Below the pieces are notes generated by a model. The model did no database searches. It had not been told where the DNA came from and saw only the letters and a list, made by a program, of their open reading frames with translations. Of a stretch of DNA of 64,000 nucleotides, positions 18,407 through 50,715 are shown in pieces. The DNA is from Microlunatus phosphovorus NM-1. GTDB taxonomy: Bacteria; Actinomycetota; Actinomycetes; Propionibacteriales; Propionibacteriaceae. The stretch lies in NCBI RefSeq assembly GCF_000270245.1, contig NC_015635.1, positions 248,001-312,000 of the forward strand. The letters run 5' to 3'. A program made the translations under genes and the position numbers. Positions within the stretch are counted from its first letter, which is position 1. Each line of letters starts with the position of its first letter.

Positions 18407-18417
18407 GATTGCTCCCG

Positions 18418-21305: not shown

Positions 21306-21307
21306 GT

Positions 21308-24451: not shown

Positions 24452-24479
24452 GACGATCACTCCAGGTTCGGTTGGGGGC

Positions 24480-25820: not shown

Positions 25821-26059
25821 GCCGCAGCCTCCTCGGCGAGGTACTCGCTGATGTCGTCGACCGTCTTGAACTCGAACAGCGCGACCGGGTTGATGTCCAG
25901 GTCGAGCTGCTTGCGCAGCCGGCTGATGATCTTGAGCGCCTGCACCGAGGACACACCGAGCCGCATGAAGCTCGCCTGGTCGTCGATGTCGGCCGGTGGG
26001 ATGGCGATCTCGGCGGAGATCTCCTGCAGGAGCACGGTCCTGATCGTTTCCTTGGTCAT
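25817..26059 (-). CDS. Free-standing carrier protein with an LGVSS site
   Basis: An 80-residue carrier protein. The modification site is LGVSSVQALKI, with Ser38 taking phosphopantetheine and Ser37 replacing the usual aspartate. Helix 2 and the VALFEFKTVDDISEYL end fit a modular PKS/NRPS carrier more than a fatty-acid ACP. It lies 16 nt after the free KS gene and overlaps the aminotransferase gene, so KS, carrier and aminotransferase look like one module split into three genes. Confidence 0.9.
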   Translation of the reverse strand: MTKETIRTVLLQEISAEIAIPPADIDDQASFMRLGVSSVQALKIISRLRKQLDLDINPVALFEFKTVDDISEYLAEEAAA

Positions 26060-26075: not shown

Positions 26076-27920
26076 TCAGAGCCAGTGCGGCTTCTTCGAG
26101 TACGGATAGGGCATCAGGGTGAGGACGGTGCCGGTGCCGGCGGGGAAGAAGTGCTCCCAGTCCACGGCGGCTCCGGCGGCAAACAGCGCGGCGGCGGTCT
26201 CCAGCGGCAACCACCCGGGATCGAGGACCACCGTCCGCGGGTCGTGGTCCCCGGATCCGAGTGACACGGCCAGTTCGCTGCGGCCGGGTTCGGCGTCGGA
26301 GACCAGCAGGGGCGAGGCCAGCGCCGCGCGGAGCCGCTCCTCGCCGGCTGATGCGGTAAGGGTCGGCCGTAGCAGCACCCGTCGCACCGGGCGGTCCACG
26401 TGTGTCACACCGACCTCGCACAGCGCTCGGCTCGCTGGGTCGAACCGGACGGTCGCCCGCCAGTCGTAGGCGGGTCGGAACCGGGCCAGCGTCATCGCCA
26501 GGTTGTACGGGTCGACGTCACGCCTGGTGAGCTGGGCCGACAGGTCGTCGAGCATGCGGTGCAGGGCGTCCTCGTCTTGAGCGGACAGGCACAGCACGGG
26601 GCACGACAGCTCGGTGCCGCGGCGTTCCGGGTCTCCCTCTTCGATGACGACGTGCACATTCGTGCCGCCGAGACCCAGAGAGGTGATCGCCCCTTGACGT
26701 GGACGGTCTGCCACCCGTGGCCACAGTGTCGGCTCGGTGATCACCCGAAACGGGGTGTCCTCCAACTGCAGCAGCGGGTTCACGGTCTCCAGGTGCAGGT
26801 TGGGCACCAGCTGCTCGTGCTGGAGGCATAGCAGCAGCTTGGCCAACCCGGCCCCTCCGGCCGCCCCCAGCAGGTGACCGATGTTGGACTTGACCGATCC
26901 GATCCCGACCGCCGTGTCCCCGAAGTCGGACTTGCGGAACACCTTGGACAGGGCGTTCAACTCGATCGGGTCGCCGATCCGGGTCCCGGTGCCGTGCGCC
27001 TCGACGTAGGAGACCCGGGTGTGGTCGAGTCCGTCGGCGTAGCAGTCCCGGATGACGTTGGCCTGCCCACGGGGATTGGGGGCCATGATGTTCAACGACG
27101 ATCCGTCGTTGTTGATGGCGTACCCCCGGATCCGACCGTAGATCCGGCGGTTGCGGCGCAGGGCGATGTCCTCGCGCTCGAGGACGCAGACCACCGCCCC
27201 CTCGCCCAGCAGTGTGCCGTCCGCCTTCTCGTCGAACACTCGCGTGTAGGGGTGTGAGGTGGTGATCCCCCCGATGGTGCACAGCTGCGCGTTGTAGGCG
27301 GCGCTGAACAGGTTGGCACCCCCGACGACCGCTCCGTCGCAGTCCTGATGGCGGATCGCGTCCGCCGCCTGCGTCAGGCTGGTCAGGAACGACGAGCAGG
27401 CCGTGTCCACCGCCATCACCGGACCGGTGAGGTCGTACTGGTGCGACACCCGGGCGGCGAGGGCGCTGTTGATCACGTTCATCACGGTGCGCGGGTGCAC
27501 GTCCGCGGTCCCGTGCTCGTCGAGGTAGCGACAGACCAGCGGGTAGTAGCTGTTGCTGGCGATCGCCATGTGGACGGCATAGCGACGATCCGCCGCGCGG
27601 GGACCTGCCTGACGCCGAGTCTCCAAGAGGCCGGCATCGCACATGGCCTCGTAGCTCAGCTCCATCACCATCCGGTGCTGTGGGTCCATGAACCGCGCCT
27701 CGTCGGCCTCGATCCCGAAGAACCCGGCGTCGAAGTACTCGATGTCGTCGACCTCGCCAATGGTGTCGCGCCAGTGCGGGGCACGGGCCAGTTCTCGACG
27801 CCGTTCGCTCACCACGGCGGTGCGGTCGACCCCGTCGACCAGGAGCTGCCAGAACTCGTCCTGAGTCGTGGCGCCCGGCAAGCGCAGCGCGAGGCCGGTG
27901 ATCGCGATGGGGGTGGTCAC
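26076..27920 (-). CDS. Free-standing PKS ketosynthase with a degenerate AT remnant
   Basis: A 614-residue protein. Residues 1-425 form a modular-type KS with Cys175 (DTACSSFLTS), His309 (EAHGTGTRIGD) and His349 (KSNIGHLLG). The remaining 190 residues begin like a KS-AT linker (CPVLCLSAQDEDALHRML) and end with a post-AT linker (LMPYPYSKKPHWL). Between them there is no GHSxGE acyltransferase site and the segment is far too short for an AT, so it looks like a collapsed AT domain. The GTG start overlaps the megasynthase stop (GTGA). It presumably extends the chain on the next-encoded carrier, with an extender loaded by an AT elsewhere. Confidence 0.9.
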   Translation of the reverse strand: MTTPIAITGLALRLPGATTQDEFWQLLVDGVDRTAVVSERRRELARAPHWRDTIGEVDDIEYFDAGFFGIEADEARFMDPQHRMVMELSYEAMCDAGLLETRRQAGPRAADRRYAVHMAIASNSYYPLVCRYLDEHGTADVHPRTVMNVINSALAARVSHQYDLTGPVMAVDTACSSFLTSLTQAADAIRHQDCDGAVVGGANLFSAAYNAQLCTIGGITTSHPYTRVFDEKADGTLLGEGAVVCVLEREDIALRRNRRIYGRIRGYAINNDGSSLNIMAPNPRGQANVIRDCYADGLDHTRVSYVEAHGTGTRIGDPIELNALSKVFRKSDFGDTAVGIGSVKSNIGHLLGAAGGAGLAKLLLCLQHEQLVPNLHLETVNPLLQLEDTPFRVITEPTLWPRVADRPRQGAITSLGLGGTNVHVVIEEGDPERRGTELSCPVLCLSAQDEDALHRMLDDLSAQLTRRDVDPYNLAMTLARFRPAYDWRATVRFDPASRALCEVGVTHVDRPVRRVLLRPTLTASAGEERLRAALASPLLVSDAEPGRSELAVSLGSGDHDPRTVVLDPGWLPLETAAALFAAGAAVDWEHFFPAGTGTVLTLMPYPYSKKPHWL

Positions 27921-30900
27921 GACCGTGCTCCGATCGAGGTGGCCTCGAGCGATTCCACGGAGTCGGCCAGCCACTCCAGGTGCAGGTGCTCGTCGTCGTG
28001 CCACACGTTGACGTGGGTGTGAGCGAGACCCGGTCCGTCCGCCGTGGTTTGCGGCATCTCGTGGGCGGGAATGTGGCCCTGGAAGTTGACCAGGGTCAGC
28101 TGGAGCCTGCCCTGCTCGTTGCGATAGACCTGTTGGAGGTCGCCGAGCAAGCCGGATCGGTCGGGTGTCGTGCTCAGCCCGTCCAGGAAGTGGACGCCCT
28201 CCTCCCGGGTTCGGTCGAGCCGCTCGGCGATGCCGTGAGTGCCTGCTCCGTCGCGCAGCAGGACCGGAACGACGTCGAGGAACTCACCGACGCAGTCGGT
28301 GTAGTCCTGGCCGAGCCACCGTCGGCAGTCGTTGACCAGACCGACCGCGATCGACCTCTGACCGCTCAGCCGCGACAACTCCTCGTGCACGGTGCGAATC
28401 GCCAGCTCGAGAGGGTTGTGCCGCTCCAGCCGGAGGCTGCGCCGGCCGCGTGGGCGTGCCGAGGCGGGGGCGTCCAGCAGCGAGGCGTTGGCGGTGAGCC
28501 AGCCCGCGTAGTCGTAGCTGGCCAGCTCGGTGCCCCAGTCCGGCTCGACAGCGACCGCTTCGGCGTAGCGGCTGTATGGCTGGACCGTGGTGAGGTCGGC
28601 GCCGCGGACGAGGCAAGTGATCTCCTCCCGCAGGATCCCGGCGCTGAAGCCGTCGAAGATGCTGTGGTGAAAGGCCCAGACCAGTCGGACGCTGTCGTCG
28701 GTGTCCTGCAGGATGACGCACCGCCACAACAGCCCGCTGCCGAAGGCCTCCTCCGGCAGGGCCGCCGCGACCTCCTCGGTGACCTGCTGAAGCTGCTGGG
28801 GTTCGACACCGCGCAGGTCCAGCACCGCCAGCAGCGGCGCCAGTCCCTCGAAAGCCTCGGGCGGTAGCACCTCGAAGTGATCCCCGACGAGCCGCGCCCG
28901 CAGCATCTCGTGCCGCAGCACGATCGCGGCCACGGCATCCTTCAGCTGCGACAGGGCGACGTGGTCGATGGCGTGCAGGTACCCGCCCGTCGCCGCGCCG
29001 CTGGAGCGGTGCAGCCGAGCCGCCGCTCCTATCTCGAATCGGTAGTCGGGCTGCTCGTCGGTGAACGCCTCGGCCACCCGGACGCTGTCCGCGACGGCCC
29101 AGGTGACCAGACGCCGGACCTGCTCGGCGGCCAGGGTCCGGGTGGCACTCGGCTCGCTCCACACGCCCGCGTTCCCGGCCGTCGCCGACAGGATCACCGC
29201 GAGGGCCGCGGCGCTGGGGTGCCGGTACAGGTCGCTGATCTGCACCTCGAGGCCGGTCTCTCGCAGCCGGCGCACCACCGCGATGGCCTGCAGCGACTGG
29301 GCGCCGGCCGCGAAGAAGTCGTCGTCGAGGCCCAGCTCAGGGCGACCCAGCACCTCGCGGAAAGTCGCCAGGATCGTCAGGTCGGTCGCCGCCGTGGTCA
29401 CCGTTGGGCCGGCGTCCTCGGTCCGAGCCGGCTGGGCCTGGCTCGCCAGTAGCCGGTGATCCACCTTGCCGTGCGGGGTCAGGGGAAGGCCGGGAAGCCG
29501 GACGAGGTGCTGCGGCACCAGATGGGGTGGCAACGCCGCGTGCAGCGCGGCGCGCAGGTCATCCTCGTCCGGGGCCGACGCGCCCGTGTAGAACGCGGTC
29601 AGCCGACTGTCGTTGCCGTCCTTGGTGTGGACGACGACAGCTTCTCCGACACCTGTGCAGGCCTGCACGGCGAACTCGATCTCGGACAGCTCGATGCGGT
29701 GGCCGGCGTGCTTGATCTGCCGGTCGGTGCGGTCCAGATACACGATCCGCCCTCGCTCGTCCAAGACCACCCGGTCACCCGTGCGGTACAGCCGTCGGCG
29801 GATCGCGCCGATCTCTGCTGGGAACCGCTCGGAGGTCAGGTCAGGTCGATGGTGGTAGCCGAGTGCGACGCCGGGTCCGGCCACACACAGCTCCCCAGGC
29901 ACGCCGCGCGGCACGTCGGTGCCGTCCGGGTGCACGATGAACAGCTCTCGGTTGCGTGCCGGGTAGCCGATCGGCATCCGGTCGCCCTCAGGTGCTTCGT
30001 CGACGCGGTACCACGTCGAGCACACCGATGCCTCGGTCGGCCCGTACAGGTTGTACAACCGTCCGGGCCCCAGCACGTCGAACGCGCGCCGGGCCGCCCA
30101 TGGCTGCATGGCCTCGCCGCCGACGTACAGCGCGGTGAGTCCGCTCACGGCCGCGGGATCCTCGGCCATCAGCAGGTGGAACACCGCGGTGATCAAGATG
30201 CCCGCGTCGATCCGCTCCTCGCGCAAGAACCTGGTGAGCATCGCCATGTCCTGGTTCAGCGTGTGGTCACCGAGGACGAGAGTCGCCCCGCTGAGCAGGG
30301 TGGCGTACAGGTCGAGGAGGGACGGGTCGAACGTCGAGCCGGTCAGGTACATGATGCGCTGGTCCGGCCGGTAGTCCATGTAGCCGTTGTCCACGCTGGC
30401 ACTCAGGACACCTCCGTGAGACACCAGGGTGCCCTTCGGCTGTCCCGTCGTACCCGAGGTGTAGATGAGGATCAATGGGCTGGCGGCGGTGAGGTCCGCC
30501 GGCGGCGTGTAGGACCCCGCCAGGGCGTCCGGGCGGTACGCAGTCACCTCGGCGGACCACGGATGGGCGCCGGGATCGGTCGCCAGGACGACCCGGGCGC
30601 CGCTGTCGGCGAGGATGTGCGCAAGCCGGGGCAGGGGTGTTTGCGGGTCCTGGGGGATCTCGATGGCGCCGCACTTGAGCAGCGCGAGCCGGCAGAACAC
30701 CTGCCACGGGTCGCGCTCCACCAGGCAGACCACGAAGTCACCGACGCCGACACCCGTTTCCTGCAGGCCTCCCGCGATGGAGTCCGTGATCCGGTCGACC
30801 TCCGCGTAGGTCCACTCGCGGCCGTGCCAGCTCAGGGCCGTCCGGTGGGCATGCTCGGTGAGGGCGGTGCGCAGCCGGTCGAGCAAGGAGCTGTCGATCT

Positions 30901-33900
30901 CCGGGCCGGCGGCCGTCAGCTCGGCCCGGCGCCGAGCGAGCTCGGCTGGTGACTCCAGACGCAGGTCGCGCAGCGGGCGCGACGGGTCCACGGTCAGCTC
31001 GACCAGGAGGAGGTCCAGCTGCTGCGCCAGGCGGCTGATCGTGCCGGCGTCGAACAGCTCGGTGCGGTACTCGATGTCCACCTCGAAGTCGTCGGCACGC
31101 TCGGCGATGCTGACCGACAACGCGTACCGGCTCATGATCGGACCGGGGGGCTGCAGTTCCAACCGCAGACCGTCGAGCTCGGGCTCGTCGGTGCCGACGG
31201 TGACGTAGTTGACCAAGACGTCGAACAGCGCGTCGTCCGGTCCCCCGGCGGCGGGACGGAGCTGGGCGAGCACCTGATCGAGGGGGGCCTCCTGGTGGGC
31301 GAGCAGGGCGAGAACGTCGTCTCGAACGGTCCCGACGGCGTCGGCGACGGAGTGCTCGGCCGCAGCCCTCAGGCGCAGCGGCAGCGTGTTCGCGAACATG
31401 CCCACCACCTGCTCGGACCCGCGCATCGTGCGTCCGGAGACGGCGGTCCCCACCACGAACTCCGGCTGGCCGCTGTACAGGCTCAGCAGCCGGGTCAGGG
31501 CGGTGAGGTGAACCATGTACGGCGTAGCACCGCAGGCTCGTGCCAGGTCGGCGACGTCTCGACGGCGGGCGGTGCTGACGAAGGTGTGCCGAGCGCCTTC
31601 GTGGGTCGCGGCGCCGGACGGCGTCCGGTCCGTCGGCAGCTCCAGCCGGGGAATCTCCCCGTCGAGCAGCTCGGCGAAGAAGGCCACGTCCTGGTCGAAC
31701 GCGCCCGATTGGGTCCGTGCCTGGAGATCGGCGACGTAGTCGGTGTAGCTGATCGGAGCTCCGGCCACCGGGTGGCCCTGCAGCTCGGCGGTGATCTCGT
31801 CGGACAGGACCGCCAGTGAAGTCTGGTCGGCGACGATGTGATGCAGATCCAGGGAGAGGAAGTGCTCCTCGGCGCTGACCCGGACGACCTCGACGCGCAG
31901 CAGCGGCGCGCTGGAGAGGTCGAACGATCGCGGCCGGGCCTGCCGCCGTGCGGCAGCCTGGGCCGCGCTCAGGTGCAACACCGAGACGACGTCGTCGCCG
32001 CAGGCGTGGATGTGCTGCATCAGGCGGCCGCCCTCGAGGTGGAAGCTGGTGCGCAGCTGCTCGTGCCGAGCGACGAGACGGGCGAAGACGGCGCGCAGGG
32101 CGTCGACGTCCAACGGTCCGACCACCCGGTACGCCAGCGCCAGGTTGTAGGCGGTGGTGTCCTCCTGCAGGGCGCAGGCGGCGTACAGGCGCTGTTGCGC
32201 CGGCGAGGCCGGCACGACCTGTGGTGCCCTGGCGTCGGCCGGGGCCGGTTGGGGGAGCACCGGCACGAGGCAGGCGGCCGGCTCCGACCGGGAGCGGCGG
32301 GACTCGGCCAACGAGGCGAGGTCCCGATAGCGCGAGTGGGCGAAGACATCGGCCACGGTGAGCTCGGCGCCGGCCCGGTCTGCCAGCAGGGCACAGAAGC
32401 GTACGGCGGTGAGCGAGTCGCCGCCCGAGGCGAGGAAATCCGCGTCGGGTGTCGGCGCGGTCCCGAGCACCTCCGACCAGGTGGCGCGGATCGCGTCCAC
32501 CGTCGCCGTCGGCTGGTCGGCCGTCGCCGATGCCGGCGCGGGGGCTGAGGCGGGCAGGGCGGGCTGGGCCACTGGTGTCGGCGTGGGGTGGCTCAGGCCC
32601 AGCAGGTGGTCCAGGCGGACGTCGGAGGTGAACCGGCGCCGCTCGAAGGCATAGCCGGGCAGTGGCACCCGACGGCCGGGGGTGCAGAACAGGCTCCGAT
32701 CGACGTCGGTCCCGTGCACCCACAGCGAGACGAGCAGCTCTCGGACCAGCGCGGCATCCACGGGCCCGGACACGAGGGACACCGCATCAGCCGGCGAGGT
32801 GGACGGGCTCGTCGGCGCGACGCCGTCGCGCAGGCGCGTCACGATCTGATCCGACCTCAGCTCTCCGCGCACCGCTGCGGCGGCGATGCGGAGCAGTCGA
32901 TCCGATCCCGGTCGGGCGAACAGGGCGTCCGGGCCGGTGACGCGCAAGACGGCGGCTCGCAGCACGAACTGGGCGACCCGGCAGACGCCGACCGGCACCG
33001 AGCGGGAACCCTCCAGCGCGGCCCGCAGTCGTTCGCGTACGTCGGCGTCGAAACCGTGCAGCTCGCGTTCGAGCGCCGCACGCAGCGCGGCTCCCGCCGG
33101 CGTCGGGTCGTCGCGGACCGTGCTCCCGAGCACGAGGTCCACGTCGTCGGAGACGTTCAGGGCGGCGCTGTCGTCCGACGGCTCGATCCAGCGGAATGTG
33201 CGGTCCGCAGCCGCCACCGCGGCCGCCCGTGACGGATACTGCGCGCGGCCCTGCGCCAGTGTGTACGAGACGTCGCGCAGCGGCGCGCCGCCATGGCAGA
33301 ACGCTTCCAGGGCTTCCTGCATGCGCCGTCGGGAGTCATCGGTGCGCGCGGAGACCGGGAGCACGCAAGGACCGAGCTCGGACTCGTCTGCGGGGCGCTC
33401 GGGCGCGCGCTCGAGGACGATGTGCGCGTTGGTCCCCCCGATACCGAGCGAGCTCACGGCGGCGAGCCGCAGCTCGTCGGTGGGCACCATGACCTTGCTG
33501 GGCACGAACAGCGAGCCCTGCTGCTCGATCCGGGAGTTCAGCCCGGTGAAGCCGGCCATCGGCGGGATCTGACCGCGTCGCAGCACACCGACTGCTCCGA
33601 GGAGCCCGGCGATGCCGGCGGCGGCGTCCAGGTGCCCGATGTTCGCCTTGACCGAGCCGAGAGCGCAGGGTCGATTCTGCCCATAAGCCCTGGCCAGGGC
33701 GGCGTACTCGATCGGGTCGCCGAGTGAGGTACCCGTGCCGTGGGCCTCCACGAACCCGACCGCGTCAGCGGCGACACCGGCGTCGGCGAGCGCGGCCCGG
33801 ATGACCTGCTCGTGGCCGCCGACGCTGGGGGCGGTGAAGCCCATCTTCTGGCCGCCGTCGTTGTTGACCGCGCTGCCGGCGATGACGGCATAGATGTGAT

Positions 33901-36900
33901 CGCCGTCCGCGAGCGCGGCGTTCAGCGGCTTGAGCAGCACCACGCCACAGCCCTGGCCACCGACGGTGCCGTCGGCATCCTCGGAGAAGGGCCGGCACAC
34001 ACCGTCCCGGCTGAAGATCATGCCCTCGGACCAGGCGTAGCCCTCCCGGCGGGGGAAGTTCAGCGCGACGCCGCCGGCCAGCGCCATGTCGGCGTCGCCC
34101 TGGCGCAGACACCTCACCGCTTCGTGGACGGCGACCAGCGAGGTCGAGCAGGCTGACTGGACGGTCATCGCAGGACCGGTCAGGTTCAGCTTGTAGGCCA
34201 CCTTGGTGGCCAGGAAGTCCTTCTCGTTGGCGGTCAACACCTCGTACGCGCCGATCGGGTCGCTGTTGCGACCGAGCAGGCCGGCCACCCAGGCGACGTT
34301 GCTGCCGCTGCCGGCGAACAGGGCGATGGTGGCCGAGTGCTCTCCCGGTACGTAGCCGGCGTCCTCGAGGGCGTGCCACGCGGTCTGGTGCAGCAGCCGC
34401 AGCTGCGGGTCCATCGTCTCGGCTTCCTTGGCGGAGTAGCCGAAGAAGTCGGCGTCGAAGACGTCGGCCTCCACGACACCGCGTGCGTTGACGTAGCGGG
34501 GGTCATCGATCAGGTGCTCGGGGATCCCGGCGTCCCGCAGCTCGGCGGGTGTGTGCCGGGAGATGCTCACCCGGCCGTCGAAGCGGTTGGCCCAGTACGT
34601 GCTCAGGTCGGGCGATCCGGGGAACTCACCGGCCACCCCGATCACCGCGATCTTGCGCTCGTCGCCGGATCGCTGCTCGGGCCAGTCGTCGAGGGCCGCG
34701 AGATCGTCCAGGGTGATGGGCGGATCGGTCTCCGGGTCGGCAGCGTCTCCCTGGTCATGGCGGTCGGCGTGCGGCCGGCTCAGCACGTCCGCCAGGCTCT
34801 GGGGCGTCGGGTGCTCGAACAGCTGGGTGAGTGGCACTTCCACGCCGAGCGTCTCGGCCAGCCGGTTGTTGACCAGCATCAGCTTGTAGGAGCTGCCGCC
34901 GACATCGAAGAAGTTGTCGCCCGCCCGGACGGCCTGGCCGAGGACGGACTCCCAGGCCGCCAGGATGTGGTCCAGCGTCTCCTGAGGTGTGACTCCGGGG
35001 GCTGCCTGTGCGGGGGCTGACTGTTCGGGGGTCGACGCGGGAGTCGGGGCATCGAGGACGTCGGCGCCCCGCTGCGTGGTCAGGAGCCGCAACGCGGCGC
35101 GGTCCACCTTGTCGTTCGGCAGCACCGGAAGCTCAGCCAGCAGCCGGATGCGGGCGGGTCGCATGTAGGAGGGCAGGGCTGCGGCGACCTCGGCCCGGAT
35201 CTGTGTGGCGCGGTCGACGCCGTCCCTGGTGCAGTGGTAGAGGACGAGCGCGTCGTCCTCGACCGCGGCGACGGCATAGCTCACGCCGGCCACGCGCATC
35301 GCCGTCTGCTCGAGCTCGCCGAGCTCGATTCGGTTGCCGTTGACCTTGACCTGTTGGTCGATCCGCCCCAACACCTGGATCTCGCCGTCCGCGCGGCGCA
35401 GTCCCGAGTCGCCGGTGCGGTAGACCGTGATCCCGGGCAGTTCCCGGATCTCGGTGAACGCGTGGGCCATCCGCTGGGGATCGTTGGTGTAGCCGAGGGC
35501 CAGTCCTGGGCCGGCGATGCAGAGCTCACCGGTCACGCCCGCGGGCGCGATCGCGCCGGACTCGTCGACGATCAACGCGGCGGCACCGCGGATGGCGGTG
35601 CCGACCGTGATGTCGTCCCCGCGAGCGAACTCCTTGACGGTGGCGGTCACCGTCGTCTCCGACGGGCCGTACATGTTGAACACGCGCGCGTCGGTCTCCG
35701 CCTGCAACAACCCGAGCAAGCTCTCCGCGAAGTGCTCGCCTCCGCAGACGACGACCCGGAGATCCCGAAGCCGGTCGCGGAAGCGCGGGTGCCCGCACAG
35801 GGCAGCCATCTTCGACACCGGCATCTGGACGTGCGTCACGGCGAAGGCGGTGATCCGGGTCGCGATGGCGGCTGCGTCCTTCTGGTCGGCCACCGGGCAG
35901 ATGTGCACGCTCGCACCGCATGCCAGCGGGATGAGGCTCTCGAAGGTGAAGATGTCGAACGTCGGGTCGGCCAGGCTGATGATGACGTCGCCCGGCGCGA
36001 ACAACCGTCGCTCCTGGTGGTCACGCAGCAGGTTGGCCACTCCGCGGTGGGGGATGACGATGCCCTTCGGAGCACCGGTCGAGCCTGACGTGTACACGAC
36101 GTAGACGGGGCTCTCGGCGGTGACTCGTGTGCCGTCGACCCCTGTGCCGTCGACCTCCGTGCCATGGGAGGCATCGAGGGTGCCGAGCCGAGCTTGGGTG
36201 CAGGTCGCGATGTCGAAGACGGTCGGGATGGCCGCGGCCGACGCCAGGCCCGCGGGCGCGAACCCGAAGCGGGGACGGAGGTCGTCCAGGATGCGGGCGT
36301 GCCGCGCGGCCGGCTGCGACGGGTCGAGCGGCAGATAGGCCCCGCCCGCCTTGAGGATCCCCAGCTGGGCCACGAAGAGGTTGACGTCGCGGACCGCGAA
36401 CAGCGCGACCGTCTCGCCCGTACGCAGACCGGCGGCGCGCAGCCGGGCCGCCTGGGCGTTCGCCATCTCATCTAGTTCGGCGTAGCTGTAACGATCACCG
36501 GTGGCGTCGATGAGCGCGGTCGCCGCCGGCGTCCGGGCGGCCTGCGCGGCGATCACGTCGTGGATCGACCGGAACGGCTCGTCGATCAGACGAGCACGGA
36601 TCTCCTCCGCCGCCGAGGGGCTCGGGAGCTGGTCGAGCCGGGCTCCGGCGTCCTCGCACACACTGGCCAACACCGCGTCGAGCTGCGCGACCAGGTGCTC
36701 GATGGTGGTGCCCAGGAACACGTCCGCCGGGTAGTCCACCTGCATCCTCAGCCCATCCGCCGACTCGGTGCAGGTGATCACGAGGTCCATCCCGACGGCG
36801 ACGGGCGGCAGCTCGAGTTGATGAGCGGTCACGCCGTCGATGTCGAGCTCGTGGTGTTCGATGTTGTGGTAGTCGAGGGAGACGTCGCACAGTGGGTGCC

Positions 36901-39900
36901 GTGCGGCGTGGCGGCGTACGCCAAGGCGCTCGACCACCCGGTCGAACGGCACATCCTGGTGGGTCAAGGCGCTCAGCACCGACTCCCGGGTCTGCTCCAG
37001 GCAGTCGCTGAATGTCGTGTCCGCCGTCGGTCGCAGCCGGATCGGCATCAGGTTCACGAACATCCCGGCCATCTCGGCCGTCTCGGCCAGGGTTCGTCCG
37101 GTCACCGGCACGCCGACGACCAGGTCGGCGCGGCCGGCGGTCCGGGCCAGCACCAGCCCCCAGGCCGCGAGCATCGTCATGAACGGGGTCGCGGCGTGCC
37201 GGTCGCCGAGCCGCTTGATCGCCTCCACCCGGTCCACCCCGAGCCGCAGCTCGACGCGCCCGGCCGATGGCTCCCGACTTCCGCGAGGGTGATCGGGGAT
37301 CAGCAGCTCGTCGGTGGGAGCATCCCGGAGGCCGGCCACGAGTTCGTCCTCGGAGGCGGTGAGGGCATCGGAGCCCTCGAGCTGGGCCAGGTGCATGACC
37401 ACGTCGGTGTACTGCAGCGGCAGCGGCGGCAGTTCCTCGCGGTAGAGCCGGCTGAAGTCACGGCTGAGGATCTCGGCCGAGGTCGCGTCGGCGACGATGT
37501 GGTGGATGTCGAACAGCAGCAGGCTGCCCGCCGCGCCGCCGTCGACGATCGCCATCCGAAACAGCGGGCCGCGCTGCAGATCGAACGGTCGGACGAAGTC
37601 CGCCATCAGGCCGGCGACGGCCTGATCCGCGGTGTCTGCCGTGAGGTGCTCCAGCGGCCACTCCGCCGGCAGCTCCTCCACCGGCGTGATGCGCTGCCTG
37701 ATGTCACCCTGACGCTCGAGGAAGGTCGTCCGCAACGGTTCGTGCCGGGCCGCCAGCCGGCGCAGCGCCAGGCGCACCCGATCGAGATCGAGTGACCCGT
37801 CCAGACGGGTGGCCGAGGCCATGTTGTAGACGAGCCCTGCTGGATCCAGCTTCGCCGCGAGGTACATGCGTTGCTGGGCGGGGCTCAGGGGATAGTCCGG
37901 GGCTGGTGCTGCCTTGCGCATCGAGCGGACGGAAGCCACCGGCGGACCACCGATTTCGCCGATTCCGCCGAAGCGCTGGGCCAGGCCGGCGGGCGTCGAG
38001 GTGGCGAAGACATCGGCCACCGTCACGGTGACGCCGAGCCGCTGTCGCAACTGGGCAGACAGCCCGGTCGCCTTGAGCGAGTCGCCCCCGAGGCTGAAGA
38101 AGTCGTCGTCGTCGGCCACGACCGAGTGTCCGAGCACGTGCTGGAACGCGGCCCGAACCTCCCCCAGCGCCCCGGACTCCGACCTCCCGGGGCCAGACGT
38201 CCCGGCACCGGACGCCTCGGCGCCGCCCAGGGGTGGTGGGGCGATCGAGAAGGGGATCGAGACGGTGGGCTCCGCCGGCGGCCTCAGGTCGCCGACCCCG
38301 CGGTCCTGCACGTGCGGTGTCTCGTCGAAGACGTAACCCGGCAGCGAGATCCGGCGGCCCGAGTCGTGGGCGCCGTCGAGAGGCAGCCCGGCACCCCACA
38401 GCCTGCCCAACGCGCCGAGCAGGTGCTGCTCGTCCGGGGTCGTCTCGGCCGCGTGGCGCAACACGTTGACGAATACCTGGTCCGGCCGCCGCGTGGGTTC
38501 CTGGGCCGCGAAGCTGGTCAGGGTCTGGCCGGGACCGAGCTCGATCCCGAACAGTGGCCCATCGGACAGCAGCGTGCTCAGGCACGTCGCGAACCGGACC
38601 TGGTCGGTGATGTGCTGGCCCCAGTAGTGCGGATCGGTCAGCTCCCCCGCCCGCGCCACGCAGCCTGAGCGGTTGGAGATGACCGGGAGCTCGGGGTCGC
38701 GGCTCTCGACCTCGGCGACGGCGTCGGCGAAGGCGCAGGCGGCCTCGGCCATCAGCGGAGTGTGGAAGGCGTGCGAGGTCTGGAGGCGGCTGCCCCAGAT
38801 CCCTTCGAGCTCCAACCGGTCCAGTACGGCGTCGAGCGCTTCGCCGGTCAGGCCCAGGACGGAGCGTTCGGCCGAGTTCTCCAGGGACAGCCAGACCCCC
38901 TCCAGATCGGCGATGACGTCGCGAACCCGAGCGGCAGGCGCCGAGACGGCGATCATCACCCCGGGCTGCTGGGCCTGCATCAGCATCCCCCGGTGACGGA
39001 CCAGGCGGACCGCGTCCTCGATGCTCCAGACGCCGGCCACCGCCGCCGCGGTGAGCTCGCCGATGCTGTGACCGACCAGGACGTCGGGCGTGATCTGGTA
39101 GGACTGCAAGACCTTCGTCATCGCGTACTGGGTGCTGAACAGCGCGAACTGGGACCACTCGGTCCGGTTGATCCGCGGGTCGGCCTGCCCGTAGATGACC
39201 TCACGGAAGACGTCGGCGTCGTCGGCGGGGAGCAGGGCGACCAGTTGGTCCATCCAGTGGCGGAAGCACTCTCCATCGGCACTGGAGCTGTGGTAGAGAT
39301 CGCGACCCATGCCGCAGTACTGGTTGCCCTGACCGGAGTAGAGCAGTGCGGTGCGAGCGCCGGCGACCGTCGACGTCGCGGCCGCTGCGGCGATCCGCTG
39401 CGGCCAGGTGTCGCGGGCTTCGTCGGCTGCGACCACGAGGGTCTTGCGGTGCGGCAGCTGCGCCCTGCCGCGTCGCAGGGTCGTGGCCACGTCAGCGGTC
39501 GCGATGTCAGGGTGCTCGACCAGATGGGTCAGCACTCGGGCAGAGGTCCGCTCCAGGGCCTGCGGCGACGCCGCGCTGAATTGCAGCAGCTCGTACGGCT
39601 GTGGTCGCGAGCGGTCGTTGCCGTCGGTCCCGGCCCGGGGTGACCCGGAATCGAGCACCGACGGAGCCTCTTCGATGATCATGTGGACGTTCGTCCCTCC
39701 GACGCCGAAGGAGTTGATTCCGGCGCGACGTCGTTCGCCGGGCCAGGCTCGGCCCTGGTCGAGCACCGTGAAGGGGGTCGCGGCGAAGTCGATGTGTGGG
39801 TTGGGCGACTCGTAGTTGCAGGTCCCCGGCAGATACCGGCGCTGCAGGCTGAGGGCGACCTTGCTCAGGCCGACGGCCCCGGCGGCGGAGTCGGTGTGTC

Positions 39901-42900
39901 CGACGTTGCCCTTCACCGAGCCGAGCAGGCAGTGACCCGCGGGGGCGTCGGCGAAGGCGCGGGTGAGCGCGGCCACCTCGACGGGGTCGCCCAGCAAGGT
40001 GCCGGTGCCATGCGCCTCGACGTAGCTCACTGTGGCCGGATCGATCCCCGCGGACTCGTAGGCGGCTCGGATCGTCTCGTACTGGCCGTCCTCACTCGGT
40101 GCGGTGTAGGAGCCCTTTCGGCGGCCGTCGTTGCCGACCGCCGAGCCCTTGATCACGGCGTAGATCGGGTCGTGGTCAGCCAGGGCGGCCGCCAGCGGCT
40201 TGAGCAGCATCAGGGCTGCGCCGTTGGAGAACACGGTGCCGCGGGCCTTGGCGTCGAACGGTCGGCAGTGCCCGTCCGGGGACAGCATCATCCCGTCGAC
40301 GTAGCGGTAGCCACCGTCGTTGGGCAGCTCCAGGGTGACACCCCCCGCCACGGCCAGGTCGCACTCCCCGGTGCGCAACGACTGCACCGCGAGGTGGACG
40401 GTGAGCAGCGACGTCGAGCAGCCGGTCAGTGCCGAGAGCGACGGCCCGGTCAGATCGAACTGGTACGACAGTCGCGTGCCGAGGAAGTGGTTGGTGGCCA
40501 GCGTGAAGTTCTGGTAGGCCTCGCCGAACACCGCCGGGTTCTGCAGACTCCTGCCGTACCAGGCGAAGTCGTCGTTGCCCCCGACGAAGACCCCGACTCG
40601 TCCGGGCAGCGACGTCGGGTCGTAGCCGGCGTCCTCGCACGCGCGCCAGAACGTCTTGTAGAGCAGTCGCAACTGCGGTGAGGTGACGTCGACCTCGGCG
40701 GGCGGGATCGCGAACAGGGCGTCGTCGAAGGAGTTCACTCCCGTGAGCCGGCCGGCCGCCTTGACGTAGTGGGGATCGCGGAGGTCGCTCTCGGCCACCC
40801 CGAGCCCGCGCAGGGCGTCGTCGTCGTAGAAGGTGATCGTCTCCTCACCACCACGGAGCTGCGCCCAGAACTCGTGGACGCCACCGGCCCCCGGGACCTG
40901 CAGACCGATGCCGATGATCGCGACGTCGTCGCTGCGGGCCTCAGCGTGGCGATCGTGATCGGGCTCGACGCCCGCGTCCAGAAGCAGCTTCGCCTGCTCG
41001 CCCACCCGCCGGAACCTCAGCAGGTCGGTGATCGGGATCTGCTGCCCGAACTCCTGCTGGATCAGTGCCTGCAGCCGCACCACGTTGAGTGAGGTCCCGC
41101 CCTGCTCGAAGTAGGACCGATCAGGATCGATCGTCGAGCTGCCCAGCGCCGCGCGCCACAGTCTGCTGAGGCGTTCGGCGACGGGCGAGGCGGGCGAGGC
41201 GGGTGCTGCCGGTGGTTCGACGACCGGTCGCTCGCTCACCTGTCCCAGCAGGACTCGTCGGTCGAGCTTGCCGGCCGCCGAGGTGGGGAGCTGCCCCAGC
41301 TGGATCAGTTCCGCCGGAAGCTGCTGCGGCTCCAGGGTCCGCGCCAGCTCGGCCCGGACGGCGCCCGCGTCGAGGTGACGCCGGGCGGTGAAGAAGCCCA
41401 CCAGCCGGGCGGGCTCAGCGGACTCGTCGACCACGGCGGCTGCCTCGACGATCCCGTCCACCCTCAGCAGCGCGTGCTCGACCTCGCCGAGCTCGACCCG
41501 CACGCCGCCGACCTTCACCTGCCGATCGTTCCGCCGCAGGAAGGCCAGCCGCCCGTCCGCCCGCAGATAGCCAAGATCGCCGGTACGGTACATCCGCCGC
41601 TGGTGCGACTCATCGGTCGCCGGGTCGTACCACGGGTTGTCGACGAAGTGCGCGGCGTTCAGCTCCGGCCGGTTGAGGTAGCCCGCCGCCACACCCGGAC
41701 CCGCGATGCACAGCTCGCCGGGCACCTCGACCCCGCAGAGTTGATCGTCGCGGCCCAGGACGTAGACGCGGTAGTCATTCAGCGCGGTGCCGATCGGGGT
41801 AATCGCCATCGCGGCGTCGGCCTTCCGCACGGTCGTGTGCGTCGCCCACATGGTGGCTTCGGTCGGTCCGTAGACGTTCTCCAGCGAGCAGGTCAGGGAG
41901 AGGGCGAAGAACCGGTCCACCACGTCGGTGGTCAGCGCCTCACCGCCGCAGAACAGGTACCGCAGCGAGGTCAGGTCGTCGGTCCGGTCCTGGGTCGCCA
42001 CCATCTCCAGGAGCAGCCGCAGCATGGTCGGGGCGAAGTTCACGTGGGTGACACCGGCGTCCCGGATGGCGCCCAGGAGGGCGCCTGGGTCTCCTTCCAG
42101 TCCGGTCGGCAGGATGGCCAGACGCCCGGCTCCGACGAGCCACCCGTACACTTCCGTGCCGAAGATGTCGAAGCTGAACGACGTCTTCAGCAGGTAGACG
42201 TCCTCGGGGCCGAGCGGGTAGAGCCGCTCCAGATCGATAGCGGTGTTGTAGAGGCTGTCGTGGCGGATGATCACGCCCTTCGGCACACCGGTCGAGCCCG
42301 ACGTGTACTCGATGTAGAGGACGTCGTCGGAGTGCAGCTCCACCGCATCCGGTTGTTCGGAGCTGCGGGTCCGCTCGTCGGTGTCGAGCGAGGTCAGCTC
42401 CTCCCACGTGTCGAGGTCCAGCCGAACCATCCCGTCGGGCAGCGCGAGGTCCAGGTCGGAGATCGTGAGGACGGCGCTGACACCGGCGTCGGTGAGGATG
42501 GCGGTCCGGCGCGCGGCCGGCGTGGTCGGCACCAGTGGCACGTACGGCCGCCCGGCCAGCAGGGTCGCGAACACGCCGACGAGCAGCTGGACGCCGCGGG
42601 GGAGCAGGATGGCGACGGGTCCGGAAGTGTCGCCGAGAGCTCTCCGCAGCCGACGCTGGACGAGGACGGCGGCATCGTGCGCCCACGCATTCGTATAGCT
42701 TCTCGTCGCGTCGCTCCAGGCGATCGCGGACGGATCGGCCTCCGTCTTGCGCAGGAACGCCGCGCCCAGATGGACCGGTTCCCAGTCGCGGTGATGCGTG
42801 TCGGACAGCTGCGTCAACAGCGCCGTGGTCTCGGCGTCAGAGTCGATCCGCAGGCACCCGGCTGGCGCGTCCAGGTTGGCCGGCACCTGCTCGAGCAGCC

Positions 42901-44206
42901 GCAGGTAGCGGCGGCCGAAGCGTCGGATCTGGTCCAGCGACAACGCGGGCTCCTTGAACTGGAAGACCAGTTCACAGTTGTCGCCGATCTGTTCGACCAG
43001 CACCGTCAGCAGGCCCGGGAACCGTACCCGATCGGATGTCGCCGCGCCGCGGACCCCCGCGGGATGCCCGGGGTAGCGGTCCTGGATGAAGGTGATGTCG
43101 AAGATCGGCTTCGTGGCGGGCCGCTGACTGAGCAGGTCGGTGATCGGGAAGTTCAGGTGCTTCCAGGTCTGCAGGATCTCGTGGCTGAGTCGCTCCAACA
43201 CGGCGCGCACGGTGTGCGCCGGTGCGGCGTCGACCAGGATCGGCAGGGTCTTGAGGAAACAGCCGATGCTCTGCTCGGCTTCCGGCGACGAGCGGTCGGT
43301 GAACGGGGTCGCCACGCTCACCTGATCGGCATGCGCATACTGCCCGAGCAGCACACCGAAGACCCCCAGGTACACGGTGAACTCCGAGACCTCCGCTTCC
43401 TGGGCGGAACTCCGCAGCGCCCGGGCCAGTCCCTCGTCCACGGACATGCGGACTTCGCGGCCCGTCAGCTCACCCGTAGCAGGGGTGATCCAGTGGGAGA
43501 GGTTCGGGGCCTCGTGTCGACTCAGGCTGTGCTGCCAGAAGTCGCTTCGGAGAGCTGCCTTCCTGTCCGGCAGAGCCGAGGCCTGGTGTCGCTGGTAGAT
43601 CTCGAAGCCGGTATCGCGCGGGACGTCGCGATCGATCGGCTCACCGCCGACAGCGAGCTCCATCAGCTGCTCGGCCAGGATGCTGACCGACAGCCCATCG
43701 GCGATGAGGTGGTGGCAGACCACGATCAGGCGGTCCTCCGCGTCGAGACGGCAGTGGGCGACACGGAACAAGGGAGGCGCCGAGAGGTCGAAGGCGGCGC
43801 CCGCCGTAGCTTCGGCTATCTCGCTCAGTTCGTCACGTACGGCGAGAGCATCGGGACGCCCCCGCAGGTCGTGGTGGACCAGGGACGGCTCGACCGAGTC
43901 CGCGAGCACGTAGGACACGCCGTCGACCCCGGCGGCGACCGCGCTGCGCAGCGCCGGCTGTCTCGTCATGAGCAGCCGGATCCCGGAATCGATCCGCTCC
44001 GGCTCTATGGGGTCGATCCGCAGCTGCAGCACCACGTTGTAGTCGGCGGGGTCCTTGACCTGGCTGTCGACGAACATGCCTTGCTGCGCGGGCGCCATGG
44101 GCAGAACCATCTCGGGCGACGCGACACTCAGTTCGCTCGCCTCCTCGGCATCACGCCATCGAGGTGTGGCCGTCCCCCGTGCTCGTCCTGTCATAACCAA
44201 AAACAT
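27917..44206 (-). CDS. Hybrid NRPS/PKS megasynthase, C-A-T-KS-AT-T-C-A-T-KS-(AT relic)-T-C-A-T-C
   Basis: A 5,429-residue assembly line (numbers from the ATG at 44206). C1 34-455 (HHLIADG 165-171); A1 475-985 (TSGSTGVPKG, Lys980); T1 Ser1039; KS1 1093-1515 (Cys1263, His1399, His1437); AT1 1617-1915 (Ser1714 in GHSIGE; HAFH 1812-1815, malonyl type); T2 Ser2043; C2 2104-2540 (HHIVADA); A2 2545-3035 (Lys3033); T3 Ser3106; KS2 3185-3600 (Cys3353, His3489, His3525); AT relic 3601-3865 without GHSxG; T4 Ser3931; C3 3995-4430 (HHIVADQ); A3 4436-4920 (Lys4914); T5 Ser4971; terminal C4 5025-5429 (HHSIFDG). No KR, DH, ER, MT, epimerase or TE domain is visible. Eye-aligned A-domain pocket residues are DITNFGVMW, DIFQVGMVT and DPLIYGLVC; I cannot assign substrates. 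The ATG at 44194 is the better start, since 44206 falls within a -10-like hexamer. Confidence 0.95.
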   Translation of the reverse strand: MFLVMTGRARGTATPRWRDAEEASELSVASPEMVLPMAPAQQGMFVDSQVKDPADYNVVLQLRIDPIEPERIDSGIRLLMTRQPALRSAVAAGVDGVSYVLADSVEPSLVHHDLRGRPDALAVRDELSEIAEATAGAAFDLSAPPLFRVAHCRLDAEDRLIVVCHHLIADGLSVSILAEQLMELAVGGEPIDRDVPRDTGFEIYQRHQASALPDRKAALRSDFWQHSLSRHEAPNLSHWITPATGELTGREVRMSVDEGLARALRSSAQEAEVSEFTVYLGVFGVLLGQYAHADQVSVATPFTDRSSPEAEQSIGCFLKTLPILVDAAPAHTVRAVLERLSHEILQTWKHLNFPITDLLSQRPATKPIFDITFIQDRYPGHPAGVRGAATSDRVRFPGLLTVLVEQIGDNCELVFQFKEPALSLDQIRRFGRRYLRLLEQVPANLDAPAGCLRIDSDAETTALLTQLSDTHHRDWEPVHLGAAFLRKTEADPSAIAWSDATRSYTNAWAHDAAVLVQRRLRRALGDTSGPVAILLPRGVQLLVGVFATLLAGRPYVPLVPTTPAARRTAILTDAGVSAVLTISDLDLALPDGMVRLDLDTWEELTSLDTDERTRSSEQPDAVELHSDDVLYIEYTSGSTGVPKGVIIRHDSLYNTAIDLERLYPLGPEDVYLLKTSFSFDIFGTEVYGWLVGAGRLAILPTGLEGDPGALLGAIRDAGVTHVNFAPTMLRLLLEMVATQDRTDDLTSLRYLFCGGEALTTDVVDRFFALSLTCSLENVYGPTEATMWATHTTVRKADAAMAITPIGTALNDYRVYVLGRDDQLCGVEVPGELCIAGPGVAAGYLNRPELNAAHFVDNPWYDPATDESHQRRMYRTGDLGYLRADGRLAFLRRNDRQVKVGGVRVELGEVEHALLRVDGIVEAAAVVDESAEPARLVGFFTARRHLDAGAVRAELARTLEPQQLPAELIQLGQLPTSAAGKLDRRVLLGQVSERPVVEPPAAPASPASPVAERLSRLWRAALGSSTIDPDRSYFEQGGTSLNVVRLQALIQQEFGQQIPITDLLRFRRVGEQAKLLLDAGVEPDHDRHAEARSDDVAIIGIGLQVPGAGGVHEFWAQLRGGEETITFYDDDALRGLGVAESDLRDPHYVKAAGRLTGVNSFDDALFAIPPAEVDVTSPQLRLLYKTFWRACEDAGYDPTSLPGRVGVFVGGNDDFAWYGRSLQNPAVFGEAYQNFTLATNHFLGTRLSYQFDLTGPSLSALTGCSTSLLTVHLAVQSLRTGECDLAVAGGVTLELPNDGGYRYVDGMMLSPDGHCRPFDAKARGTVFSNGAALMLLKPLAAALADHDPIYAVIKGSAVGNDGRRKGSYTAPSEDGQYETIRAAYESAGIDPATVSYVEAHGTGTLLGDPVEVAALTRAFADAPAGHCLLGSVKGNVGHTDSAAGAVGLSKVALSLQRRYLPGTCNYESPNPHIDFAATPFTVLDQGRAWPGERRRAGINSFGVGGTNVHMIIEEAPSVLDSGSPRAGTDGNDRSRPQPYELLQFSAASPQALERTSARVLTHLVEHPDIATADVATTLRRGRAQLPHRKTLVVAADEARDTWPQRIAAAAATSTVAGARTALLYSGQGNQYCGMGRDLYHSSSADGECFRHWMDQLVALLPADDADVFREVIYGQADPRINRTEWSQFALFSTQYAMTKVLQSYQITPDVLVGHSIGELTAAAVAGVWSIEDAVRLVRHRGMLMQAQQPGVMIAVSAPAARVRDVIADLEGVWLSLENSAERSVLGLTGEALDAVLDRLELEGIWGSRLQTSHAFHTPLMAEAACAFADAVAEVESRDPELPVISNRSGCVARAGELTDPHYWGQHITDQVRFATCLSTLLSDGPLFGIELGPGQTLTSFAAQEPTRRPDQVFVNVLRHAAETTPDEQHLLGALGRLWGAGLPLDGAHDSGRRISLPGYVFDETPHVQDRGVGDLRPPAEPTVSIPFSIAPPPLGGAEASGAGTSGPGRSESGALGEVRAAFQHVLGHSVVADDDDFFSLGGDSLKATGLSAQLRQRLGVTVTVADVFATSTPAGLAQRFGGIGEIGGPPVASVRSMRKAAPAPDYPLSPAQQRMYLAAKLDPAGLVYNMASATRLDGSLDLDRVRLALRRLAARHEPLRTTFLERQGDIRQRITPVEELPAEWPLEHLTADTADQAVAGLMADFVRPFDLQRGPLFRMAIVDGGAAGSLLLFDIHHIVADATSAEILSRDFSRLYREELPPLPLQYTDVVMHLAQLEGSDALTASEDELVAGLRDAPTDELLIPDHPRGSREPSAGRVELRLGVDRVEAIKRLGDRHAATPFMTMLAAWGLVLARTAGRADLVVGVPVTGRTLAETAEMAGMFVNLMPIRLRPTADTTFSDCLEQTRESVLSALTHQDVPFDRVVERLGVRRHAARHPLCDVSLDYHNIEHHELDIDGVTAHQLELPPVAVGMDLVITCTESADGLRMQVDYPADVFLGTTIEHLVAQLDAVLASVCEDAGARLDQLPSPSAAEEIRARLIDEPFRSIHDVIAAQAARTPAATALIDATGDRYSYAELDEMANAQAARLRAAGLRTGETVALFAVRDVNLFVAQLGILKAGGAYLPLDPSQPAARHARILDDLRPRFGFAPAGLASAAAIPTVFDIATCTQARLGTLDASHGTEVDGTGVDGTRVTAESPVYVVYTSGSTGAPKGIVIPHRGVANLLRDHQERRLFAPGDVIISLADPTFDIFTFESLIPLACGASVHICPVADQKDAAAIATRITAFAVTHVQMPVSKMAALCGHPRFRDRLRDLRVVVCGGEHFAESLLGLLQAETDARVFNMYGPSETTVTATVKEFARGDDITVGTAIRGAAALIVDESGAIAPAGVTGELCIAGPGLALGYTNDPQRMAHAFTEIRELPGITVYRTGDSGLRRADGEIQVLGRIDQQVKVNGNRIELGELEQTAMRVAGVSYAVAAVEDDALVLYHCTRDGVDRATQIRAEVAAALPSYMRPARIRLLAELPVLPNDKVDRAALRLLTTQRGADVLDAPTPASTPEQSAPAQAAPGVTPQETLDHILAAWESVLGQAVRAGDNFFDVGGSSYKLMLVNNRLAETLGVEVPLTQLFEHPTPQSLADVLSRPHADRHDQGDAADPETDPPITLDDLAALDDWPEQRSGDERKIAVIGVAGEFPGSPDLSTYWANRFDGRVSISRHTPAELRDAGIPEHLIDDPRYVNARGVVEADVFDADFFGYSAKEAETMDPQLRLLHQTAWHALEDAGYVPGEHSATIALFAGSGSNVAWVAGLLGRNSDPIGAYEVLTANEKDFLATKVAYKLNLTGPAMTVQSACSTSLVAVHEAVRCLRQGDADMALAGGVALNFPRREGYAWSEGMIFSRDGVCRPFSEDADGTVGGQGCGVVLLKPLNAALADGDHIYAVIAGSAVNNDGGQKMGFTAPSVGGHEQVIRAALADAGVAADAVGFVEAHGTGTSLGDPIEYAALARAYGQNRPCALGSVKANIGHLDAAAGIAGLLGAVGVLRRGQIPPMAGFTGLNSRIEQQGSLFVPSKVMVPTDELRLAAVSSLGIGGTNAHIVLERAPERPADESELGPCVLPVSARTDDSRRRMQEALEAFCHGGAPLRDVSYTLAQGRAQYPSRAAAVAAADRTFRWIEPSDDSAALNVSDDVDLVLGSTVRDDPTPAGAALRAALERELHGFDADVRERLRAALEGSRSVPVGVCRVAQFVLRAAVLRVTGPDALFARPGSDRLLRIAAAAVRGELRSDQIVTRLRDGVAPTSPSTSPADAVSLVSGPVDAALVRELLVSLWVHGTDVDRSLFCTPGRRVPLPGYAFERRRFTSDVRLDHLLGLSHPTPTPVAQPALPASAPAPASATADQPTATVDAIRATWSEVLGTAPTPDADFLASGGDSLTAVRFCALLADRAGAELTVADVFAHSRYRDLASLAESRRSRSEPAACLVPVLPQPAPADARAPQVVPASPAQQRLYAACALQEDTTAYNLALAYRVVGPLDVDALRAVFARLVARHEQLRTSFHLEGGRLMQHIHACGDDVVSVLHLSAAQAAARRQARPRSFDLSSAPLLRVEVVRVSAEEHFLSLDLHHIVADQTSLAVLSDEITAELQGHPVAGAPISYTDYVADLQARTQSGAFDQDVAFFAELLDGEIPRLELPTDRTPSGAATHEGARHTFVSTARRRDVADLARACGATPYMVHLTALTRLLSLYSGQPEFVVGTAVSGRTMRGSEQVVGMFANTLPLRLRAAAEHSVADAVGTVRDDVLALLAHQEAPLDQVLAQLRPAAGGPDDALFDVLVNYVTVGTDEPELDGLRLELQPPGPIMSRYALSVSIAERADDFEVDIEYRTELFDAGTISRLAQQLDLLLVELTVDPSRPLRDLRLESPAELARRRAELTAAGPEIDSSLLDRLRTALTEHAHRTALSWHGREWTYAEVDRITDSIAGGLQETGVGVGDFVVCLVERDPWQVFCRLALLKCGAIEIPQDPQTPLPRLAHILADSGARVVLATDPGAHPWSAEVTAYRPDALAGSYTPPADLTAASPLILIYTSGTTGQPKGTLVSHGGVLSASVDNGYMDYRPDQRIMYLTGSTFDPSLLDLYATLLSGATLVLGDHTLNQDMAMLTRFLREERIDAGILITAVFHLLMAEDPAAVSGLTALYVGGEAMQPWAARRAFDVLGPGRLYNLYGPTEASVCSTWYRVDEAPEGDRMPIGYPARNRELFIVHPDGTDVPRGVPGELCVAGPGVALGYHHRPDLTSERFPAEIGAIRRRLYRTGDRVVLDERGRIVYLDRTDRQIKHAGHRIELSEIEFAVQACTGVGEAVVVHTKDGNDSRLTAFYTGASAPDEDDLRAALHAALPPHLVPQHLVRLPGLPLTPHGKVDHRLLASQAQPARTEDAGPTVTTAATDLTILATFREVLGRPELGLDDDFFAAGAQSLQAIAVVRRLRETGLEVQISDLYRHPSAAALAVILSATAGNAGVWSEPSATRTLAAEQVRRLVTWAVADSVRVAEAFTDEQPDYRFEIGAAARLHRSSGAATGGYLHAIDHVALSQLKDAVAAIVLRHEMLRARLVGDHFEVLPPEAFEGLAPLLAVLDLRGVEPQQLQQVTEEVAAALPEEAFGSGLLWRCVILQDTDDSVRLVWAFHHSIFDGFSAGILREEITCLVRGADLTTVQPYSRYAEAVAVEPDWGTELASYDYAGWLTANASLLDAPASARPRGRRSLRLERHNPLELAIRTVHEELSRLSGQRSIAVGLVNDCRRWLGQDYTDCVGEFLDVVPVLLRDGAGTHGIAERLDRTREEGVHFLDGLSTTPDRSGLLGDLQQVYRNEQGRLQLTLVNFQGHIPAHEMPQTTADGPGLAHTHVNVWHDDEHLHLEWLADSVESLEATSIGARS

Positions 44207-44323: not shown

Positions 44324-44368
44324 TAGTGTGTCCAGCAGACCAATAACTTGTCTCAGGAGACGCCAGTC

Positions 44369-45234: not shown

Positions 45235-45260
45235 CTGACCGGCGGGTCGCCCGGTGTCAG
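45235..45260. terminator. Weak hairpin between the convergent afsA-type and receptor genes
   Basis: CTGAC and GTCAG arms with additional GGG/CCC pairing over about 26 nt, overlapping the receptor stop codon. It may end transcription from both sides; imperfect pairing and no T-tract keep this tentative. Confidence 0.35.
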
Positions 45261-45913: not shown

Positions 45914-46097
45914 CCGCAACCTCCCGTGGTCGCCGGCATGGTCTCTGGGCCTCACGTCCTGCCCCCACGGGGGCCGTGACACGCTACCAGGAGACAACAG
46001 CTCGCGACCCTGGATGATGGTGCGTCGTCAGGGTCGTCTCCGAATGCTGGTGTCGGTCGTGGGCCAGATCACACCGGCGGGAACCTCGCGGGCGGGC

Positions 46098-50634: not shown

Positions 50635-50703
50635 GGGGCTGAGAGTACTGGGCCCGTTGTTACCGCGACGTAAAGCCCACCGGTGGTGGGCGCCCGCGTC
50701 CAC

Positions 50704-50709
50704 TACCCT
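50704..50709 (+). promoter_or_regulatory. -10-like hexamer of lysS, leaderless arrangement
   Basis: TACCCT lies 6 nt before the GTG at 50716, so initiation at the usual distance would place the first nucleotide at the start codon. No ribosome-binding site precedes the GTG, which supports a leaderless message. The palindrome CCCACCGGTGG just upstream could bind a regulator. Confidence 0.45.
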
Positions 50710-50715
50710 TGCCCG

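Follow-up and report, generated by a model that had tools for sequence, protein, structure and literature searches.

A conserved NRPS-PKS gene cluster of Microlunatus phosphovorus NM-1 with a putative condensation-fold release domain and a discrete ketosynthase-carrier-aminotransferase set

A conserved cluster around a single hybrid megasynthase

The window, the whole 64,000-nucleotide stretch of DNA analysed here from the soil actinobacterium M. phosphovorus NM-1, encodes a hybrid NRPS-PKS megasynthase of 5,429 aa (positions 27917–44206, minus strand, ATG start), recognised from Pfam matches, motifs and 11 full-length relatives, and belonging to a 12-gene set common to 11 other genomes with its order mostly kept. 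We propose that this assembly line would leave two ketones in its product, receive its starter from a discrete ketosynthase (KS3), carrier protein (ACP) and aminotransferase (AMT), and free the finished chain through its terminal domain, C4. Taken as a whole, this model is tentative, and we judge its chance of being correct to fall slightly short of even.

Relatives of the cluster were collected by an AMT scan using one genome per species, which returned 11 loci at 55–81% identity before identity fell to 42%. Ten of these loci are actinobacterial and represent several families, coming from Glycomyces (three), a Stackebrandtia MAG, Antribacter, Pseudopropionibacterium, a Propionibacteriaceae MAG, an Actinomycetota MAG, Brachybacterium and Cryobacterium, and gene order is the same across the actinobacteria where contigs allow; the remaining one comes from a Firmicute, an Oscillospiraceae MAG. 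Each relative encodes one megasynthase, about 5,300–5,500 aa long, which can be aligned over its full length at 36–62% identity. The Cys-His-His residues of KS1 and KS2 and the Ser of all five T domains are kept in 12 of 12 megasynthases, as are the AT1 motifs GHS(I/V)G and (H/Q)AFH; all relatives also retain the second His in every C domain. The full-length relatives and the preserved catalytic residues indicate that the megasynthase gene, whose third-position GC is high (GC3 0.89), is neither a chance open reading frame nor a degraded gene.

In the megasynthase tree, Antribacter grouped with Glycomyces and Stackebrandtia (98/99), and M. phosphovorus stood apart from the two other Propionibacteriaceae. 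Moreover, a search for AMT in 19 other genomes of the genus found nothing above about 43% identity. These placements, together with the lack of a closer AMT match in those 19 genomes, are read as horizontal transfer, by which the cluster has apparently spread.

Since the flanking genes are not shared with the relatives, the cluster was delimited to positions 15293–44206, with all its genes on the minus strand and the others lying downstream of the megasynthase gene. In addition to the megasynthase and the KS3, ACP and AMT genes, it comprises conserved genes for a 4'-phosphopantetheinyl transferase (PPTase, 15293–15997), a FabF-like discrete ketosynthase with an intact active site (15997–17235), a second discrete carrier protein, ACP2 (17284–17517), an ABC transporter ATPase (17585–18427, start approximate) that is 64–80% identical in the actinobacterial relatives, an FtsX-type ABC permease (18418–21399, start uncertain), an MFS exporter (21308–22678) and a thioesterase (TE). 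A multi-pass membrane protein (23465–24529) that matches no Pfam family is present in all 12 clusters and is a possible self-protection, transport or export component. A first-pass annotation of this DNA had omitted KS3, ACP, AMT, TE, FabF, PPTase and the exporters, and these genes change the picture. Among papers accessible without subscription, searches on the cluster family, its product, Glycomyces, Microlunatus, Stackebrandtia and γ-amino-β-keto lines returned no match.

Several neighbouring genes (AfsA/TetR on one side; a 575-aa protein, a methyltransferase, and a TetR and ABC pair on the opposite side) were rejected as cluster parts, as they are not conserved in the relatives. An AfsA/ScbA-like gene (44348–45229, plus strand), whose match stays under the NCBIfam cut-off, and a TetR gene (45257–45997, minus strand) adjoin the megasynthase gene, which suggests butyrolactone-type control in this strain only. 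Further along, positions 47190–52272 hold consecutive genes for a transglutaminase, an Alpha-E protein and a circularly permuted ATP-grasp protein; the row resembles an operon widespread in actinobacteria and seems to have nothing to do with the cluster.

Domain organisation and acyltransferase supply of the megasynthase

Pfam searches gave the domain order C1-A1-T1-KS1-AT1-T2-C2-A2-T3-KS2-AT2*-T4-C3-A3-T5-C4, where the starred stretch, called AT2 below, matched no AT model; the first-pass annotation had read this order correctly in every domain. The HMM scan of the whole protein that it had called for detected no KR, DH, ER, MT or TE, linkers included (E ≤ 0.01). Judged by sequence motifs, the C, A, T and KS domains and AT1 are intact, AT2 being the one inactive domain. 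Its remark that a thioesterase is lacking holds for the megasynthase polypeptide and fails for the cluster, which has a type-II-like TE in trans.

The N-terminal condensation domain C1 (42815–44107, aa 34–464) carries the motif HHLIADG and has no donor module upstream, so it is expected to be fed by a discrete carrier protein. The five carriers, T1 (40982–41173), T2 (37973–38161), T3 (34784–34969), T4 (32282–32509) and T5 (29198–29374), were assigned by Pfam and motif. The A-domain pockets were read by hand, using motif anchors for A1, as DITNFGVMWK in A1 (41237–42745, aa 488–990; identical among the actinobacterial relatives), DIFQVGMVTK in A2 (35087–36550) and DPLIYGLVCK in A3 (29465–30868; different in the Firmicute relative), and these residues gave no confident substrate for any of the three domains. 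Both C2 (36605–37897) and C3 (30887–32221) would accept a PKS-built donor. Their motifs, HHxxxDA near position 37505 (HHIVADA, in most relatives) and HHxxxDQ near position 31845 (HHI-x-x-DQ, in all relatives), depart from the usual HHxxxDG.

KS1 (39647–40930) and KS2 (33392–34657) have intact Cys-His-His residues and lie near each other in the ketosynthase trees. In two trees built on a small reference set, drawn partly by likeness to KS3, all ketosynthases preceded by C-A-T grouped with KS1 and KS2 (100/100 and 100/99), in a clade that also includes some ketosynthases following PKS modules. KS3 fell outside this clade, with AL-T-KS, trans-AT and Nostoc KS-AT-T-AMT-C-A-T ketosynthases (100/99), a position consistent with acyl-ACP rather than PCP-bound donors, as expected for MycA-type initiation. 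The placement of KS1 and KS2, but not that of KS3, supports, short of proof, the uptake of chains from NRPS modules. The possibility that KS3 is a copy of KS1 or KS2 was ruled out, as it is only 32% alike and belongs to a different clade.

AT1 (38312–39358) is intact and of the malonyl type, with the motifs GHSIG and HAFH. AT2 (32627–33373) is a truncated acyltransferase, as judged by alignment, AlphaFold and Foldseek: the regions holding the catalytic Ser and His are missing in 12 of 12 aligned megasynthases, which rules out an ordinary AT, and the fold is confidently predicted (pLDDT 91.5), with OzmQ KS1, ClbK and the ZmaA AT as its nearest folds. The AT regions of OzmQ and ClbK are inactive. 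AT2 shares with these vestigial regions a truncated or inactive AT kept after the KS, the activity coming from elsewhere; it differs from them in that another module of the same megasynthase still has an intact AT, namely AT1. Because the catalytic regions of AT2 are gone and KS3 has lost its AT, both KS2 and KS3 need an AT in trans, a role that AT1 or a FabD could fill. In another actinobacterial genome (L148, G652:C11), a PKS contains a KS1-like KS and, after it, a short region that matches AT weakly, which may also reflect AT loss.

Starter formation, chain release and competing readings

KS3 (26076–27920) is a discrete ketosynthase that has lost its AT and has an intact Cys-His-His set; its catalytic residues are invariant in an 11-row alignment, and its GTG start at position 27920 overlaps the megasynthase stop codon (GTGA). 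Its partner ACP (25817–26059) is a discrete protein of 80 aa. AMT (24480–25820) is a class III PLP aminotransferase of the glutamate-1-semialdehyde-aminomutase (GSAM) kind, which adjoins the ACP, as in MycA-type initiation, and always lies beside a dedicated KS3-ACP pair in the cluster relatives. Its nearest match was GSAM, the MycA AMT 6kfm also being matched at 3.5e-46, and a search with AMT in plasmids returned mainly hemL-like enzymes. In the Propionibacteriaceae MAG (L030:7826–9979), KS3 and ACP are naturally fused in one polypeptide. The C domain that follows the AMT in the Nostoc protein is not close to C1.

The MycA aminotransferase puts an amino group on an ACP-bound β-ketothioester (PMC3870968), and FenF supplies the malonyl unit of MycA in trans (PMC3039948). 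The M. phosphovorus cluster shares with the iturin and mycosubtilin systems a KS, an ACP and a class III aminotransferase that would together yield a β-aminoacyl thioester, with the AT in trans. However, MycA is fused with the following C domain, whereas the parts are separate genes here, only KS3 and ACP being joined in one relative; AMT is nearer to GSAM than to MycA; the lines that are fed differ; and the actinobacterial members have FabF where MycA has an AMP ligase. An acyl-AMP ligase is absent from the actinobacterial clusters and was found only with the Firmicute relative.

On this likeness, KS3, ACP and AMT would constitute a dissociated iturin-type initiation unit. KS3 would extend an acyl group from ACP2 and FabF with malonate on the ACP, AMT would convert the β-ketone into a β-amine, as MycA does in mycosubtilin synthesis, and C1 would take up the β-aminoacyl starter; FabF as the source of the starter in the actinobacterial members is a guess. 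From PKS/NRPS logic and the KS tree, the megasynthase would then join three amino acids and two malonate-derived units, leaving both ketones in place.

The least certain step is chain release. C4 (27920–29179) is a terminal, divergent condensation-fold domain with the motif HHSIFDGFS. In 11 aligned members, the H, D and S of H-x-x-x-D-x-x-S are invariant (the catalytic His being residue 5181); two positions of the HHxxxDG motif, its first His and its Gly, vary among relatives. Its predicted fold is that of a condensation domain (pLDDT 86), and Foldseek returned general C-fold matches at a TM of about 0.5 with no specific subtype, 5dij and 5ejd, looked at for kinship to fungal terminal condensation (CT) domains, being listed among many C domains. 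C4 lies on its own branch, apart from C1–C3 and from the C domains of ordinary modules (100/99 and 100/100, with long branches), and so stands apart from LCL-like domains, as the first-pass annotation had anticipated. Across 395 other genomes of actinobacteria, with only a few candidates scored in each, no relative of C4 reached E ≤ 1e-22, and a plasmid search gave weak matches only. The TE in trans (about 22671–23440, start approximate) carries GHSMG, and its nearest structures are mostly type II editing thioesterases (SrfA-D, RifR, RedJ-type and YbtT).

Chain release by macrocyclisation is established for fungal CT domains (PMC11546977). They use a terminal amine as the nucleophile. C4 has in common with them the features of a CT-like domain, namely a condensation fold in terminal position, the HxxxDxxS motif, which is also found in ordinary C domains, and the lack of a releasing, type I TE. 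Unlike them, it is bacterial, belongs to an NRPS-PKS hybrid and does not find CT domains as its specific closest folds. The type-II-like nature of the TE, the C4 motif, its separate branch and the known CT release make C4 the preferred candidate for the release step, with the β-amine as its nucleophile: C4 would free the chain from T5, most simply as a macrolactam closed by the starter's β-amine, and the type II TE would only clear stalled carriers. A bolder claim, which we regard as possible and would not ourselves bet on, makes C4 the founding member of a new clade of bacterial release domains with the condensation fold, closing a macrolactam with the β-amine from a discrete KS-ACP-aminotransferase set while two β-ketones are kept. 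If true, the product would belong to a new class of compounds, and bacteria would have a way of releasing chains that needs no thioesterase. The cluster would offer a compact test case for C-domain release without a type I TE in bacteria, for aminotransferase-made starters from separate genes and for modules that rely on a shared AT once their own is lost; macrocycles of this ketone-rich, amine-bearing kind have received little study.

The gene order is equally compatible with KS3 acting after C4. C4 might work intermolecularly, joining the T5-bound chain to the β-amine of the aminoacyl-ACP made by KS3, ACP and AMT, so that the β-amino unit would be C-terminal, the trans TE or hydrolysis would free the product, and ACP2 would hand an ordinary acyl group to C1. 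The colinear series of megasynthase (ending in C4), KS3, ACP, AMT and TE, the GTGA coupling of C4 and KS3 and the conserved C4 catalytic residues would all suit such a route, and the Firmicute ACP2 and AMP ligase could feed C1 directly; yet KS3 is then left without an assigned starter and the sole TE is type-II-like, which makes this reading rather unlikely. Colinearity and the complete KS3 active site would also agree with KS3 as a third elongation module, condensing the T5 peptidyl chain with malonate on the ACP for AMT to convert into a C-terminal β,γ-diamino unit, C4 being skipped or serving as a gate. We regard this as improbable, given that KS3 lies outside the clade of NRPS-following ketosynthases and is 32% like KS1 and KS2, and that the H, D and S of C4, kept over deep divergence, would hardly survive in a bypassed domain.

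The first-pass annotation had expected the unreduced units to undergo amination or reduction in trans. An aminotransferase gene does exist, and in a line without KR a discrete AMT could act on the line's own ketones on T2 and T4 to give β,γ-diamino units, as had been proposed; but AMT always adjoins a dedicated KS3-ACP pair, which would be conserved with no role, so that such action is very unlikely and AMT most simply works on the separate KS3-ACP product.

Reduction in trans found no counterpart, since none of the actinobacterial members has a reductase or F420 enzyme among its conserved genes. Pepstatin and other statine lines likewise use an amino acid and then malonate without KR, through β-keto intermediates, and exist in cis-AT and AT-less variants (PMC12081711); they differ in having dissociated genes and the F420 reductase PepI, neither of which is seen here. 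No PepI-like Pfam match was obtained among the conserved genes, so the ketones are expected to persist. Since pepstatin lines also lack KR and rely on PepI (PMC12081711), an enzyme whose gene lies outside the conserved cluster might reduce the released product to statine-like units, but the missing reductase leaves this the least probable of the readings. The same absence, with the grouping of KS1 and KS2 among NRPS-following ketosynthases, supports the γ-amino-β-keto units initially predicted. Andrimid-type lines keep a β-ketone after amino acid-malonate units (PMC12081711), as the proposed line would, but the latter is a single megasynthase and its conserved set has no transglutaminase-like condensing gene.

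A variant cluster in an Oscillospiraceae relative

The Firmicute cluster lacks FabF and is rearranged in order, and one TAA was reported within the searched N-terminal stretch of its megasynthase. A discrete FabD-like AT lies between ACP and AMT, and an AMP ligase accompanied by a dedicated ACP is found beside the cluster. By analogy, this AMP ligase, ACP and discrete AT are the parts of MycA and FenF present as separate genes.

The same genome encodes, at L033:8905–9921, L033:16220–20321 and L139:1–5128, the FabD-like AT, a nitrilase-family protein, FkbH, a 3-hydroxyacyl-CoA dehydrogenase, a small ACP, an acyl-CoA dehydrogenase, ETF genes, the AMP ligase with ACP, and biotin-dependent carboxylase subunits. 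FkbH, 3-hydroxyacyl-CoA dehydrogenase, acyl-CoA dehydrogenase and ACP form the usual set for hydroxymalonyl-ACP or methoxymalonyl-ACP, as in FK520 and zwittermicin. From this gene set, the β-amino unit of the Firmicute product may carry an α-hydroxyl group.
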